Source of the DNA: a virus
Length of the DNA: 51,248 bases
Strand: one strand, 5' to 3'
IMG/VR virus record: IMGVR_UViG_3300048999_000032
Coordinates: 1-51,248 of that record
Below are positions 19,341 through 47,244 of this stretch, piece after piece; positions within the stretch are counted from its first letter, which is position 1, and every line of letters begins with the position of its first letter. The notes below the pieces were generated by a model. That model did no database searches. It worked only from the letters and a program-made list of their open reading frames with translations, and was not told where the DNA came from. Made by a program: the position numbers and the translations under genes.

Positions 19341-19954
19341 GCCACACCTGCCACGAGATGCCGCGCCCAACCGAGCGATGCCGGGCCCAACCCTGCAGTG
19401 CCCTGCCCAACCTGCCGTGCCGAGCCATACCTGGCCCCGACAAGCCCTAACCGGCCCCACCCAGCCACATCGAGCCGTACCATGCCTGCCAGACCGTGCC
19501 GGGACTTACCCCGACATGCCCCGCCTGCCCCGACATACCGCACCGAGCCCCGCCAAGCCTTGACCTGCCTGCCAAGCCGCGCCATACCTGGCGCTGCCAT
19601 GCTCTGCCGATCCCCGCCTGCCGTGCCCTGACTAGCCGGACCGCGCACTGACGAACCGAGCCACACCCCGCCTGCCACGCCGTAACGGACCATGACGAAC
19701 CGAGCCAAGCCAGGCCGCGCGAAGTCGAACCATGCCTGCCTCGCCATGCCATACCGGGGCTTGACATGCCCAGCCCAGCCAAACCAAGCCTGCCTTGCCG
19801 GAACATGCCGTGACCCGACACGCCTATCCCTGCCTGCCGCGCCGCACCTGACCCCACCGCACCCAACCAAGCCCTGCCGATCCGAGCCTGCCGAGCCCCA
19901 CCACGCCTTGCCGAGACAAGCCGTGCCACGACCTTCCACGCCTGCCGTGCTCAC
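19337..19954 (-). CDS. Possible 205-aa Gly/Ala/Arg/Trp-rich protein encoded by the pentanucleotide array
   Basis: A single frame without stops runs across the whole array. Its GTG start overlaps the upstream TGA (GTGA) and its TGA overlaps the downstream ATG (ATGA), the same junctions as real genes here. The product is low complexity with recurring RQAW, GMARLG and YGMARQAW-like pieces and no recognisable fold. Other frames over the array are also partly open because NNGGC pentamers rarely spell stops, so coding is uncertain. Confidence 0.4.
   Translation of the reverse strand: MSTAGVEGRGTACLGKAWWGSAGSDRQGLVGCGGVRCGAAGRDRRVGSRHVPARQAWFGWAGHVKPRYGMARQAWFDFARPGLARFVMVRYGVAGGVWLGSSVRGPASQGTAGGDRQSMAAPGMARLGRQVKAWRGSVRYVGAGGACRGKSRHGLAGMVRLDVAGWGRLGLVGARYGSARQVGQGTAGLGPASLGWARHLVAGVA
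19341..19950. repeat. Degenerate pentanucleotide (NNGGC/GCCNN) array, about 600 bp
   Basis: The minus strand reads as roughly 120 consecutive five-base units of the form NNGGC or close variants, e.g. TCGGCAAGGCGTGGT and CTCGGCACGGCAGGT. The plus strand is the complementary GCCNN series. Units are conserved only at GG (often GGC); the other positions vary. The transcribed strand product would be GG-rich with three-base spacers. It lies between two conserved genes in the early operon. No other part of the window resembles it. Confidence 0.93.
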
Positions 19955-40920: not shown

Positions 40921-41370
40921 CTAGATTTGGCCCTTGTAGGTGACCGTGAACACGATCCGGACTTTCGCGGCCTGCTTGGTTTGGACCGGCGAGTACCGGT
41001 GGTCCGAGACGAACGAATCCATCACCAGACCGCCTAGTTGCGGGTCTGCACGGAGTGCGTCCTCAGCGGCAGAGACGAACCCGTAGGCACGTGCGCGCAG
41101 CGTAGGAACATCGGTGTCACCGGCGCGTGATACGACCGCGCACGTGACCTGACCGTCCTCCTGCTTCACCCGCGCGAACGCCATCCAGGACTGCTGAGCG
41201 GTCGCGCCCTCGTTGAACTCGTCCGGGCTGCCACCGTTGAACCCGACGTACACCCAGTCATTCGACGGGTCGGCGTTCACCTGCGGTCCGTCGACCACGT
41301 TGATGGTCGGCAGCGCGGCCTTCCACATCGCGGTGAGATACACGATCACCGCATCCGTCCTGGCGCTCAC
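40921..41370 (-). CDS. Tail terminator-like protein, 149 aa
   Basis: MSARTDAVIVYLTAMWKAAL, DWVYVGFNGGSPDEFNEGAT and RARAYGFVSAAEDALRADPQ then VRIVFTVTYKGQI. The alpha/beta arrangement and place directly after the adaptor gene match tail terminator proteins. Confidence 0.68.
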   Translation of the reverse strand: MSARTDAVIVYLTAMWKAALPTINVVDGPQVNADPSNDWVYVGFNGGSPDEFNEGATAQQSWMAFARVKQEDGQVTCAVVSRAGDTDVPTLRARAYGFVSAAEDALRADPQLGGLVMDSFVSDHRYSPVQTKQAAKVRIVFTVTYKGQI

Positions 41371-42176
41371 GCAAAGCCTGCCGCTGCCTGGTCGGGCTGT
41401 AGCAAGGTGATTGCACGGAACGGCACCAGGTACCCCGTACCGAGCCGCGGATCCACCGGGTCGTCACCCTGGGCGCTGGGCAGGTTCCCCAGCCGCGACT
41501 CCCACAGGTGCTGGATGATGATCTGCGCCGCGAGAATCCAAGCCGCCTTCACCGACGTACGGCCCACCGTGTAGGTGACGTCCATGTCCCCGTACAGCAC
41601 CATGAACGACGACTTGAAACCGAAGATCCCAGACGGGGTGTCCAGGAGGATCTGAGTCAGGTCGACCGTGCCCGTTCCCGGCAGAACCACCACGATGTTG
41701 TCGATCGACAGCACCTGCGTGTGCGGCAACGGGATCTGCGGACGGTACCCGTGCACCCTGCGCGTGTACTGCCGCCGCACCACCGGACCCACGTAGGACT
41801 CGACGATCGAAGTCGTGGCCTCGAGGAAGCCGCGCAGTTGCTCGTCGGACTTCGTGGAGGTGATGTTCAGTTGGTCCTTCGCGTCGGCCAGCGAGATCAG
41901 CGACGGTGACGCGGCTTCGCGGACGTCGATCGTGTCGCCATAGGCCGCGTTGGGTCCCGTCATCAGCGCACGCCACGTGTACCGTCCCTCGACGGCGGGG
42001 ACGTATGTGACCTGGTAGTGCCCTGTCGAAGCGGGTGGGTTCGTCACCGCGGGAGTGACGGTTGTCCCATCGGGGAGCGTGATCGTCAGCGTCGCCGTGG
42101 CGGCGTTCGCCAGAGTTCCCGTGGAGTCCTTCACGTCCCAGGCGATCGGGACGGAGTCACCGATGTCGTAGGGCAT
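41367..42176 (-). CDS. Head-to-tail adaptor with N-terminal Ig-like domain
   Basis: 269 residues. Residues 1-90 are Ig-like (ATLTITLPDGTTVTPAVTNP, VEGRYTWRALMTG). The rest is the gp6-type adaptor (SLADAKDQLNITSTKSDEQL, SIVESYVGPVVRRQYTRRVH, KAAWILAAQIIIQHLWESRL). It docks below the portal. Confidence 0.82.
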   Translation of the reverse strand: MPYDIGDSVPIAWDVKDSTGTLANAATATLTITLPDGTTVTPAVTNPPASTGHYQVTYVPAVEGRYTWRALMTGPNAAYGDTIDVREAASPSLISLADAKDQLNITSTKSDEQLRGFLEATTSIVESYVGPVVRRQYTRRVHGYRPQIPLPHTQVLSIDNIVVVLPGTGTVDLTQILLDTPSGIFGFKSSFMVLYGDMDVTYTVGRTSVKAAWILAAQIIIQHLWESRLGNLPSAQGDDPVDPRLGTGYLVPFRAITLLQPDQAAAGFA

Positions 42177-43196
42177 CTATCCTCCAGTCGCAGTAGGGAC
42201 GGGCATGGAGCCGGCGGAAGCGGAAGTAGTCAGGCCAGTTGCTGCCGATGCTGTCGGCGCAGGCCCAGTGGCAGCACTTGCGGAGCCGGAGGTGGGCGGC
42301 GCAGGCGGGACGTATACCCACGTCGGCCCGAAGATGTGTCCACGGCGTACCGCAGGCACACCGCAGCGGCGCGAGGGCATCCGCACTGGGCAGGTTGCGC
42401 GCGGCAACGGCGTAGCAAGGAACTCGCCGCGGCGTACCGGGCCGACCTGCGGGCGTCGGGTCCGAGCGATCTGCGGTACCCAGGACGAGACAGTGATGGT
42501 CTGCTGCGGGACCGGGGTCCAGAATCGTCCACGGCGCGCGAACAGCACCTTGACCCGGCTGCGGATCGTCTGCGGCAGCGCCACAGACGGGGCCGGGGCC
42601 GCGCCGACAAGCGGGACCGTGAAGAACTCGATGCGCCTAGGAGCCACCAGACGACGTGTAGACGGACGCAGGAAACTTGGCGGCAACGGACCGGGGCCAG
42701 CCAGTACAGCAAGCGGCGGGACCATGTAGAACCGGCCCCTACGAGGTGCCGCTGCGCGGCGGGTGGTTGGGTGCTGGATGTTCGGTAGAAGCGGTCCCGG
42801 TCCGGCGAGCACAGCCGCGGGGATGACGGTCAGGAACTCGCCACGCCTAGCCGGGCGGACCGGGGCCCGGCGCGTGTTCAGGAACGGCGGGACCCAGACC
42901 GCTACAGCCGCGACGGACGCCGGTGGAACGGCGTAGAACCTGCCCCTGCGGCTGCCGCGGGGACGAGAGTTGCGCCCCGCCGGCTCGCTGAACATGGGGA
43001 CGTACTGCGACGTCTGCACAACCGCGGCGGGGACAACCCCGAAGAACTGTCCACGGCGTGTGGTACGCGGCCGGGAGTTGCGGGCTGACGGCTCCTGGAA
43101 GACCGGGGCATAGGGCGATGCGGCGACGACCTGGGCTGTGATGGTCTTGTAGAACGCGCCCCTGCGAGATCTGGGGTAACGCCAACGACGAGACAC
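42177..43196 (-). CDS. Arginine-rich RRG-repeat protein, 339 aa
   Basis: About nine imperfect repeats of 33-37 residues, each opening RRG-x-F (RRGAFYKT, RRGQFFGV, RRGRFYAV, RRGEFLTV, RRGRFYMV, RRIEFFTV, RRGRFWTP, RRGEFLAT, RRGHIFGP) and followed by a proline/valine-rich VPPAAV segment and an aromatic-proline turn. The C-terminal 50 residues are Ala/Thr/Ser/Gly-rich. The product is strongly basic. It stands between capsid-side and connector genes; it may bind DNA or decorate the capsid. No family with known function is recognised. Confidence 0.78.
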   Translation of the reverse strand: MSRRWRYPRSRRGAFYKTITAQVVAASPYAPVFQEPSARNSRPRTTRRGQFFGVVPAAVVQTSQYVPMFSEPAGRNSRPRGSRRGRFYAVPPASVAAVAVWVPPFLNTRRAPVRPARRGEFLTVIPAAVLAGPGPLLPNIQHPTTRRAAAPRRGRFYMVPPLAVLAGPGPLPPSFLRPSTRRLVAPRRIEFFTVPLVGAAPAPSVALPQTIRSRVKVLFARRGRFWTPVPQQTITVSSWVPQIARTRRPQVGPVRRGEFLATPLPRATCPVRMPSRRCGVPAVRRGHIFGPTWVYVPPAPPTSGSASAATGPAPTASAATGLTTSASAGSMPVPTATGG

Positions 43197-43233: not shown

Positions 43234-43701
43234 TTATTCCTCCCACTCCATCGAAACCACGTACTTGTGCGAAGCCGGCAGCGCGTTGTCGCGGTTGATG
43301 AACGCGACACCATCGGTCGTACCGGCTGCGATCACGAACTCCTCAAGCAGCTCCCACGGCAGATCCACGCCCGACTGCGAGTTGAACGCGATCCGGTAGG
43401 CGTCCGCGGTCGCCACGGTCGGCGGGGTCGCGTACGACGGGATCAGGGAGCATGACGCGGTGGGTGAGTTCGGGTCGAGCTTGTTGGTGGCGATCGCCGC
43501 ACCAGGGGTGGTTCCGGCGCTCGTGGTGCGCACCAGACCGACAACGACCTGCTGTGAGGTCGGGGTGCTGGCACCGGCGACGACGCCGAGGGTGACACGG
43601 CGGAGCTTGGCTCCCGCACCGGCGACCGGCCGCAGCCAGGCGAAACCGGTGTCGAGAGCGAGTGCAGCAGACGACTCCAGCTGCGAGGTGTAGCGGGCCA
43701 T
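43234..43701 (-). CDS. Structural protein, 155 aa
   Basis: MARYTSQLESSAALALDTGF, LRRVTLGVVAGASTPTSQQV and VDLPWELLEEFVIAAGTTDG, then SMEWEE. A beta-sandwich likely; common in actinophage head regions as an unassigned virion protein. Confidence 0.7.
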   Translation of the reverse strand: MARYTSQLESSAALALDTGFAWLRPVAGAGAKLRRVTLGVVAGASTPTSQQVVVGLVRTTSAGTTPGAAIATNKLDPNSPTASCSLIPSYATPPTVATADAYRIAFNSQSGVDLPWELLEEFVIAAGTTDGVAFINRDNALPASHKYVVSMEWEE

Positions 43702-43715
43702 GAGGTGCTCACTTC

Positions 43716-44396
43716 CTAGTAGAAACCTGCGTACTGACTGATGGGTTGTGGAGCCTTGATGGCCGCTGCAGCGGCGGCCTTTACCTCGACGGCGACCAGG
43801 CCGATCCAGTCGCTCGCGCAGTTGAGGGTCAGACCAACCGACCCACCGGCGGCAGCGTCACCACCGGCGGCATTGTTCGCAGCATTGGTCGAACCGGCAT
43901 TGATCAACCAGCGTTGACCTGTGAACGAAGAGATAGCCGACCCTGCCGAACCAAGCCCCGCGACCTGGTTGCCGGTGGTGGTCCCGGTGACCGTCACCGT
44001 GTCGGAGGTCTGGTTACCCGCGCTTGCGTGAGTCACTGGGGTGCCGAACGCGGCAGCGAACGTTGCTGCGGCCCCCGTGAAGGAGGTCGACCCACCCTCC
44101 AGGTCGGTATTGCCGGATGCCGTCCAGACGATCGTCTTTGCGCCGCTGCCAACGGCGGCAATGCCGAAAGCCTCGGTAAAGCCGGCCGTGCCACCGCCGT
44201 TGTGGATCTTCCCCAGCGAGGTCGCCGAGACCCCTCCGACCGTCATGGTCGTGGTCACGGAGTCGAAGGTGCTGCCGCCTCCGGCGACGATCGCGAGCGA
44301 TGACCCGACTCCGGTGTGGGTCCACGTCAGGGACGTGACTCCGGTGCCCGATGCACCTGCCGATGATGGGCCTACCGCGTCGAAGGCTACGGCCAT
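43716..44396 (-). CDS. Beta-rich surface structural protein, 226 aa
   Basis: MAVAFDAVGPSSAGASGTGV, SLTWTHTGVGSSLAIVAGGG and STNAANNAAGGDAAAGGSVG; low-complexity Gly/Ala/Thr with regular beta strands, as in phage surface decoration proteins. Likely exposed on the virion. Confidence 0.72.
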   Translation of the reverse strand: MAVAFDAVGPSSAGASGTGVTSLTWTHTGVGSSLAIVAGGGSTFDSVTTTMTVGGVSATSLGKIHNGGGTAGFTEAFGIAAVGSGAKTIVWTASGNTDLEGGSTSFTGAAATFAAAFGTPVTHASAGNQTSDTVTVTGTTTGNQVAGLGSAGSAISSFTGQRWLINAGSTNAANNAAGGDAAAGGSVGLTLNCASDWIGLVAVEVKAAAAAAIKAPQPISQYAGFY

Positions 44397-45396: not shown

Positions 45397-45846
45397 CTAA
45401 CTGCGGTCGAGGAGATCGACGACTTCAGTGCGGTAGTTGTCGACCACCCATGCCAGCAGGTCCGAAACGCGCTGACCCTGCGGCTGCGGCTTCGCCCACA
45501 ACTCCAGGTTCTCCGGGCGGTTGTCTCCCCGGATGCCGTTGATGTGGTGCACGTTCTCGAACGGCGCGAGGGGTCGACCGAGGATCTGCTCCATGACGAC
45601 GCGGTGCTCAAGTTTCTTAACCCGGTTTTCGTCAACCACGACCACGTAGCCAACCCCTGTGACATACCGGCCGCCCGTGCCGCGCTTCGTGAGCGTGCGG
45701 CCAGCCAGCGGATCGCCATACCGGAGGAACTTGTAGTTGTGCTTGTTGCAATACCCGGAGGCGAGCGTCGCCACATGGGTTTCACAGTCGTCTACCGAGC
45801 ACCTCGTGCGGCCTCGGTCGAAGTAAGCGGAACGCGTTTCGGTCAT
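45397..45846 (-). CDS. Free-standing HNH homing-type endonuclease
   Basis: 149 residues. An N-terminal zinc region (CSVDDCETHV, CNKHNYKFLRYGDP) is followed by the HNH core LEHRVVMEQILGRPLAPFEN, VHHINGIRGDNRPENLELW and a C-terminal helix. Inserted directly after the capsid gene, breaking the usual order. Its 5' flank is AT-richer than neighbours and holds an 18-bp inverted repeat, so it is probably a recent mobile insertion. Confidence 0.85.
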   Translation of the reverse strand: MTETRSAYFDRGRTRCSVDDCETHVATLASGYCNKHNYKFLRYGDPLAGRTLTKRGTGGRYVTGVGYVVVVDENRVKKLEHRVVMEQILGRPLAPFENVHHINGIRGDNRPENLELWAKPQPQGQRVSDLLAWVVDNYRTEVVDLLDRS

Positions 45847-45875
45847 TGAACACCTCTGCAATAGGTGGGTACTGC

Positions 45876-45924
45876 CTCTATTCTGGTCCATTTATGATTG
45901 CAGCACAAATGGACCAGAATAGAG
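45876..45924. repeat. 18-bp perfect inverted repeat behind the capsid gene
   Basis: CTCTATTCTGGTCCATTT (45876-45893) is exactly complementary to 45907-45924, with a 13-base loop. It is much AT-richer than its surroundings and lies between the capsid stop and the homing nuclease start. It may be the capsid gene terminator or a boundary of the inserted nuclease module. Confidence 0.85.
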
Positions 45925-45935
45925 AGACTGTTGTA

Positions 45936-47195
45936 TTAAGTTGCGCTGTTGGCGAGGTACTTGCAGGCGTTCGGGTCGACCGTGACGGCCCCGGTACGGA
46001 CCAAAGTGCGGAAAGCAACCTGGTCATTGCCAAAGGCATATTCGTTGCTTCGCTCGAACCGTAGCCCGCCCGCGATGCGGATCTTCAGCGCCGCCATTTC
46101 ACCGAAGTAGATCGACTTCGCGTTCGCCGCCATCACCGGCAGCTGCGGCACGACGTAGGCGGGCTTGCCGAGAATCGTGTCCGGGTCGCCCGCAGTGAGC
46201 GCCGGCTGCCAGATCGAGGACCCGTTCGGTGCGCCCTTCAGGTTCCGGATCGCCGCGAAGGACGAGTCGGCCATGACCCACGCAGCGTTCGTCCGGTACT
46301 CCGGGAGCACCGAGTGGAACAGGTTCACCAGCAGATCGGACCCCATGCCGGCGGTGGCCTGTGAGCCGAGGCTGACCGTGGTGCCCACCGGGCCGGTGAC
46401 ACCGACAGTGGTGAAGCCGGCGATCAGGGCGGTGGTGCCGATGAAGCTCAGGGTGCGGGCGAGTTCACGGCCGGCCGCCATTGAGATGTATCCCTCGAGG
46501 TCGAAGTTGGTGTCGGACACCAACTCAGACGGCACCAGGGTCAGGTAGCCGTACTTGGAGACCGACAGGTTGACCGTGGTGAGCGTCGCGTCGTTCGCGG
46601 TGATAGCACCGTTCGCCGAGATCGCCGCCGGGGTTGCGGCGTTCGCCGTACCGGTGGTGGCGTGCACCGTCGCGACCGGCAGCGGCAGGGTGTTGCCGTC
46701 AGTGGTGTTGAGGATGTCGACACCGGACTGCAGCAGCTGCGACCCCGCCACGGCGTACTGCCACAGCTGGCCGTACACGCCGTCCTGCGCCACACCGCCA
46801 GTGGCGGACATGGCACGCGTTTCCTGGCCACGGGTCGCCATCGCGCGCCGCTCCGCACCCGGAACAGCCGGGATGTCGAACACGTCACCGACACGGGCCT
46901 CACGGGCCCACTTGCCGAACGCGGCGTCGGCATCGGACTGGCGCTGCTGCTCGTTCGGCTGCTTACCTGTGACCTTGCGGAACGACTCCTCGAGCTCGCG
47001 CCCGCGGTCCTCGCCGTCCTTGATGGCCTTGGCCCGCCCCAGGAGCGTGCCCGCCTCGGCGAACATGCCATCGAAGGCCGACTGCTCCTCGACAGACAAC
47101 TCACGGCCCTCGGTCACGCCCCGCTGGGCGATCTCCTGGGCCTCGTTGATGAGCGCTGCGCGGCGCTCCATCAGGGTGTCAGCAATGCTGGACAT
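45936..47195 (-). CDS. Major capsid protein, HK97 fold
   Basis: 419 residues from ATG 47195. The N-terminal delta-like coiled coil (MSSIADTLMERRAALINEAQ, about 1-105) would be removed by the protease. The capsid domain has LPLPVATVHATTGTANAATP, SVSKYGYLTLVPSELVSDTN, FHSVLPEYRTNAAWVMADSS and LGKPAYVVPQLPVMAANAKS, typical of the family. AGGGG is eight bases upstream of the ATG. Confidence 0.95.
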   Translation of the reverse strand: MSSIADTLMERRAALINEAQEIAQRGVTEGRELSVEEQSAFDGMFAEAGTLLGRAKAIKDGEDRGRELEESFRKVTGKQPNEQQRQSDADAAFGKWAREARVGDVFDIPAVPGAERRAMATRGQETRAMSATGGVAQDGVYGQLWQYAVAGSQLLQSGVDILNTTDGNTLPLPVATVHATTGTANAATPAAISANGAITANDATLTTVNLSVSKYGYLTLVPSELVSDTNFDLEGYISMAAGRELARTLSFIGTTALIAGFTTVGVTGPVGTTVSLGSQATAGMGSDLLVNLFHSVLPEYRTNAAWVMADSSFAAIRNLKGAPNGSSIWQPALTAGDPDTILGKPAYVVPQLPVMAANAKSIYFGEMAALKIRIAGGLRFERSNEYAFGNDQVAFRTLVRTGAVTVDPNACKYLANSAT

Positions 47196-47212
47196 GTGTG
47201 GGTCCCCTTTCA

Positions 47213-47244
47213 CGGGACTCGGATGGGGTCATGCATGAGTCCCG
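47213..47244. promoter_or_regulatory. Leader hairpin of the capsid gene
   Basis: CGGGACTC (47213-47220) pairs with GAGTCCCG (47237-47244) 18 bases upstream of the capsid ATG. The 130-base gap to the protease gene otherwise holds no gene. It could protect or regulate capsid mRNA. Confidence 0.45.

Follow-up and report, generated by a model that had tools for sequence, protein, structure and literature searches.

We report that a strongly basic RRG-repeat protein of an uncultured virus belongs, together with the predicted jelly-roll protein encoded just upstream of it, to an accessory cassette that is mobile between unrelated phages. The window analysed here is the whole 51,248-nucleotide stretch of IMG/VR record IMGVR_UViG_3300048999_000032, and the genes around the locus are listed in Table 1; related loci are denoted by L numbers. 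With a probability of roughly one half, the repeat protein is an accessory virion protein, most likely situated outside the particle, that is anchored at its N-terminus and forms a disordered, multivalent cationic strand. The anchor would be the conserved N-terminus, M-x-RRWR followed by the first RRG-x-F, which would probably attach to the jelly-roll protein or at the site which that protein occupies, and the nine Arg/Pro repeats would remain disordered and extend outward, where they could stick to polyanions, for instance the polymers of the cell wall or the extracellular matrix. We infer the presence in the virion, the outer location, the docking partner and the ligand from the evidence set out below.

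Table 1. Coordinates of the repeat gene, its parts and its neighbours in the window
Feature	Position	Strand	Remarks
Head-tail adaptor	41367..42176	(-)	Ig-like-looking domain (residues 1-90) and gp6-like connector (94-230); PF05135, phrog_442
RRG-repeat protein gene, 339 aa	42177..43196	(-)	M-S-RRWR N-terminus, nine repeats, neutral A/S/T/G/P tail
Neutral Ala/Ser/Thr/Gly/Pro tail, end PTATGG	42180..42308	(-)	Shine-Dalgarno of the next gene, GGAGGA (42180-42185), in last codons
Repeat array, residues 11 to ~296	42309..43166	(-)	Unit: RRG-x-F, V/P-rich core and R/P linker, in this order
Jelly-roll partner, 155 aa, directly upstream of repeat gene	43234..43701	(-)	Predicted cement or appendage-type beta protein
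226-aa protein, C-terminal ISQYAGFY	43716..44396	(-)	Resembles a beta-sandwich surface domain by sequence; third cassette gene in near relatives
Major capsid protein, HK97 fold family	45936..47213	(-)	PF05065, phrog_10; upstream edge of variable slot

The repeat gene is a real coding gene under purifying selection. It starts with GTG, 6 nt downstream of the Shine-Dalgarno sequence GAGGAAGGGG, and its dN/dS among the window, L222, L037 and L036 is 0.25-0.33 (pS 0.47-0.62, pN 0.19-0.27 and dN/dS 0.25-0.30 between the window and the three relatives), comparable to the 0.27-0.41 of the adaptor gene. Shifted frames of the locus were rejected as coding on account of stops and pN>pS. Since the repeat gene abuts the start of the adaptor gene and bears the adaptor's Shine-Dalgarno sequence in its last codons, the two genes are probably translationally coupled.

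A preliminary description of this protein had proposed nine RRG-x-F repeats of 33-37 residues. Nine RRG-type motifs are indeed present, starting at residues 11, 47, 83, 117, 152, 187, 221, 255 and 284, and eight of them are of the form RRG-x-F/I, but the sixth reads RRIEF, the spacing is 29-36 residues (36, 36, 34, 35, 35, 34, 34 and 29), and the ninth unit is truncated and passes into a neutral tail of 43-44 residues. Composition-preserving shuffles (n=20,000) contained a mean of 0.06 such motifs and never more than 3. The strong basicity noted earlier was borne out: the net charge is +45, located entirely before residue 297, and the computed pI is 12, whereas the proteins of neighbouring genes are mostly near neutral or acidic. 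Arg makes up 14% of the residues and Pro 15%, with 0.6% Lys, 1.5% Glu and no Asp. GC-rich codons favour Arg, Pro, Ala and Gly, as would be expected if the protein were an ordinary low-complexity product of high-GC drift, its repeats having no selected function. Such an origin is highly improbable, as it is largely refuted by the dN/dS values, and the aromatic F/W/Y positions and RRWR are retained between proteins that are only 30-40% identical. Between close relatives, a repeat is for the most part more similar to the one of the same number than to its neighbours, so the units are old, with no recent amplification. AlphaFold2, working from a shallow and gappy repeat alignment, returned a pLDDT of 46 and no secondary structure; the protein is probably disordered, although a model based on so shallow an alignment could miss structure formed on binding.

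The protein had been described as unlike known head proteins, in agreement with its lack of matches in Pfam-A, PHROGs, NCBIfam and PDB sequences; the repeat proteins of L222, L056 and L224 likewise had no match in PHROGs. Neither the window's protein nor that of its near relative L222 had a tblastn match among 50,697 phage records, and viral contigs scanned with the window's protein as sole query gave none. Since tblastn filters low-complexity sequence, relatives could have gone unnoticed, and these searches do not prove that the family is absent from cultured phages. Despite this caveat for the repeat protein, its partner, which is not low in complexity, was equally without a tblastn match in the phage records. 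The family was reached only via triple-repeat and RRWR patterns and via the adaptor and partner genes: the first relatives (L036, L037) lie beside adaptors 65% identical to the window's, L055-L058 were recovered by the triple-repeat pattern, an RRWR-RRG pattern yielded eight further contigs with family members, and the partner-gene search added many more loci. Over genome contigs the triple-repeat pattern matched 55 stretches, among which only L165, a remnant bordering the end of a contig from Amycolatopsis kentuckyensis, passed the repeat profile; the partner profile found nothing in the 396 and 297 genomes searched around this host, a search that had no positive control. The family is distributed over uncultured-virus contigs and this one Amycolatopsis genome. 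Its members have 82 to >700 residues and, as had been anticipated, vary in repeat number, from 1 to ~20. Their start, M-x-RRWR, is near-constant, with M1, R3, R4, W5, R6 and R12 invariant across 18 aligned members. Several (L056, L086, L118, L218, L240) end in a second type of repeat, with regularly spaced Trp amid Gly, Pro and Glu. Literature searches for virion proteins of phages that are disordered or built of arginine-rich repeats yielded nothing relevant.

The preliminary description had missed the jelly-roll partner, the RRWR start that the family conserves, and the fact that the cassette is accessory and mobile. Every one of the 12 contigs that were recovered solely through a repeat or N-terminal motif has the partner next upstream of its repeat gene; at L055, ~1.1 kb of other sequence separates these genes. 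Searching in the opposite direction, we found a repeat-profile match downstream of the partner at 37 of 57 loci, a few of these matches being weak (~E 1e-4) and perhaps compositional, and several contigs ending soon after the partner. At ~33 of the 57 the downstream gene begins with M-x-RRWR, compared with 0.2% of start codons, and at some loci beyond the 37 it has the RRWR start only. AlphaFold2 predicted a jelly-roll-type beta protein (pLDDT 82). When this model was compared by VIA-align with ~1,000 candidate PDB chains, the best match was a tail-fibre domain of phage 7-7-1 (9rkv, Z 8.3), which ties with the cement proteins of GP4 (8.2) and KHP40 (8.0), those of KHP30 and Pam1 reaching 7.6 and 6.8; a Z near 8 can reflect merely a common arrangement, so that 'cement-like' is to be taken as a lead.

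Partner and repeat gene recombine relative to each other: the window's partner is 88% identical to that of L036 and 56% to that of L222, and its repeat protein 60% and 70%, respectively. The partner occurs in two length classes, one of 155 aa and one that an insertion following residue 14 brings to ~165 aa, and as both are found with a repeat gene, the alleles are exchanged independently. Two divergent partner copies (L238 and L243) lie on a single 160.7 kb contig, IMGVR_UViG_3300010396_000001, one of them followed by a beta-sandwich-like and RRG-like protein. The strict pairing of the genes in one direction, the predicted disorder and the presence of something else after the partner at some loci would all suit an assembly or expression factor absent from the finished particle, for example a chaperone keeping the jelly-roll protein soluble until its placement. 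We consider such a role improbable, as the joining of the family's sequences to tail-type proteins at L237 and L239 speaks for a protein that is part of the virion.

That the cassette is accessory is evident from close relatives of the window. At L006, where the slot between capsid and adaptor is complete and the capsid protein shares 95% identity with that of the window, partner and repeat gene are both absent, and the slot holds a 596-aa protein that combines a beta-sandwich-like part with Ala/Thr repeats. The pair is likewise absent from L039 (capsid protein 80% identical); no conclusion on absence was drawn from L002 (98%), whose contig breaks off within the slot. The pair also occurs beside capsid proteins for which BLAST, at the cut-off applied, showed no similarity to that of the window. 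At L063 a partner 90% identical to the window's, together with a repeat gene, closes the tail gene region, with capsid and tape measure preceding it; at L226, L237 and L239 the cassette follows the tape measure, and at L213 and L228 it precedes the terminase. Therefore, the location between decoration-type genes and the head-tail adaptor given in the preliminary description holds for the window, but its label of 'head protein' was too specific, since the head-cluster position is not conserved.

Genes similar to that of the 226-aa protein precede the partner/repeat pair at L036, L037 and L063, and a domain homologous to it forms the front of the slot proteins of L044, L045, L051 and L054. An adaptor with Ig and connector domains comes after the repeat gene at ~20 loci; at L224 and L226 the Ig-like part follows the repeat gene, with no connector domain detected. 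By the look of its sequence, an HNH homing-type endonuclease gene lies between the capsid and neck genes of the window (45397-45891, minus strand), and homologues are also found near the partner gene at L204 and L215. Elsewhere in the window, short tandem repeats of 19-20 bp lie at 19359-19433 and 19709-19792, near a tRNA-Asp gene.

At related loci that lack the pair, the slot contains a pectate-lyase-like domain (L043), an apiosidase domain (L041) or a beta-sandwich with Ala/Thr stalks (L006, L039), and these proteins too may be displayed on the surface. The apiosidase-like catalytic domain (PF13204; L041, 2558-5773) and the pectate-lyase-like domain (PF12708; L043, 4308-5975) are each encoded directly before the head-tail adaptor, an unusual place for such enzymes. 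The repeats are fused behind beta-sandwich-like domains at L218, L221, L195, L241 and L243. The RRWR start heads other proteins as well, namely an S/A/D-repeat protein (L209), a minor tail protein (L239, phrog_1885), an 82-aa protein with a single repeat (L228) and a protein combining repeats with phrog_5313 (L237); at L226 a phrog_5313 member is encoded immediately after the tape measure. Because the enzymes and stalks of the slot and the fusions to beta-sandwich and tail proteins point outward, we favour an external, N-terminally anchored strand.

Two roles had originally been suggested, external decoration and internal DNA binding. The former fits these observations and the latter does so poorly. 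A protein packaged with the genome and neutralising the charge of its DNA would account for the net charge of +45, the predicted disorder and the location in a late gene cluster; yet the cassette also lies in tail gene regions, behind tape-measure and minor tail genes, it exchanges places in the slot with lyase, glycosidase and stalk proteins, and its repeats or N-terminus are fused to beta-sandwich-like and minor-tail proteins. Nor is Arg without Lys, interleaved with Pro and Val, typical of DNA-binding proteins that are packaged. An internal DNA-binding role is therefore unlikely, and less likely than the strongest rival to our reading, in which the disordered chain would lace over the particle surface, each RRG-x-F unit folding into a pocket on a single subunit of capsid, cement or neck, the repeats thereby holding the subunits together. 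The regular 34-36 aa spacing, the retention of individual repeats by position in relatives and the pairing with a predicted cement-like jelly-roll protein are what such a staple would lead one to expect. It is hard to reconcile with a repeat gene that is missing beside a 95%-identical capsid protein and is found in the tail gene region, and with a repeat number ranging so widely; nor does protein length correlate with the length of the carrying contig, a rough stand-in for genome size (Spearman 0.11, n=17). The idea that repeat number serves as a ruler of capsid size was rejected for the same lack of correlation. We regard lacing as a rather unlikely explanation.

The external strand that we favour has its own difficulty, in that repeats best matched to the same-numbered repeat suggest position-specific roles and not just a sticky array. 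A docking prediction also failed: the partner's invariant acidic residues are just as conserved at loci whose downstream gene has no RRWR, and the idea of docking to an acidic patch, for which relaxation of these residues would be expected at such loci, is unsupported. More speculatively, RRWR might be a general anchoring peptide, with one jelly-roll platform accepting interchangeable RRWR-tagged repeats, stalks or tail modules in the same virion socket across unrelated head types; the RRG array would then be a disordered cationic glue and a previously undescribed kind of appendage. This wider proposal is tentative, but should RRWR prove to be a plug-in anchor, it would provide a testable rule for the swapping of surface modules by phages.

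Accessory surface proteins help determine how phages stick to hosts and surfaces, and those with a fixed anchor and a variable outer part are of a known kind. As far as the libraries and papers examined show, a disordered Arg/Pro version with RRG repeats and a dedicated jelly-roll partner is undescribed. Indeed, a cassette that is spread over unrelated uncultured phages and has no tblastn match in the phage records is one to which present annotation is blind.

Among known systems, the head cluster of phi-C31 shares with the window the order of terminase, portal, protease, capsid and tape measure, and its capsid protein is ~30% identical; phi-C31 runs from capsid to gp37 without an extra gene block, whereas seven genes separate capsid and adaptor in the window. 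We know of no counterpart of the repeat protein in Ralstonia phage GP4, Helicobacter phages KHP30/KHP40 or cyanophage Pam1, whose trimeric Ig-like/jelly-roll cement proteins resemble the partner in size and predicted fold. Unlike these, the partner has no match among PDB sequences, occurs in tail gene regions and is tied to no one capsid protein, which is not how a cement protein would behave, though optional decoration proteins would also fail to stay with their capsid protein. GP4 gp1 is a 157-aa trimer located on the outer capsid surface at the quasi-threefold axes (PMC9698820). The Ala/Thr/Ser-repeat stalks of close relatives (L006, L039, L038) hold the same position as the repeat gene before the Ig-plus-connector adaptor, and the L006 stalk has an A/S/T/P tail ending in TGG, of the same kind as the tail of the repeat protein; they differ from it in being neutral, in having a beta-sandwich-like head and in lacking the RRWR start and RRG repeats. 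Head-fibre and surface-display proteins of the T4 Hoc and phi29 gp8.5 type are folded, accessory and variable proteins encoded near capsid or neck genes, with a conserved anchor and a variable outer part. The repeat protein is like them in being accessory and bearing a putative anchor, and unlike them in its predicted disorder and Arg/Pro repetition.
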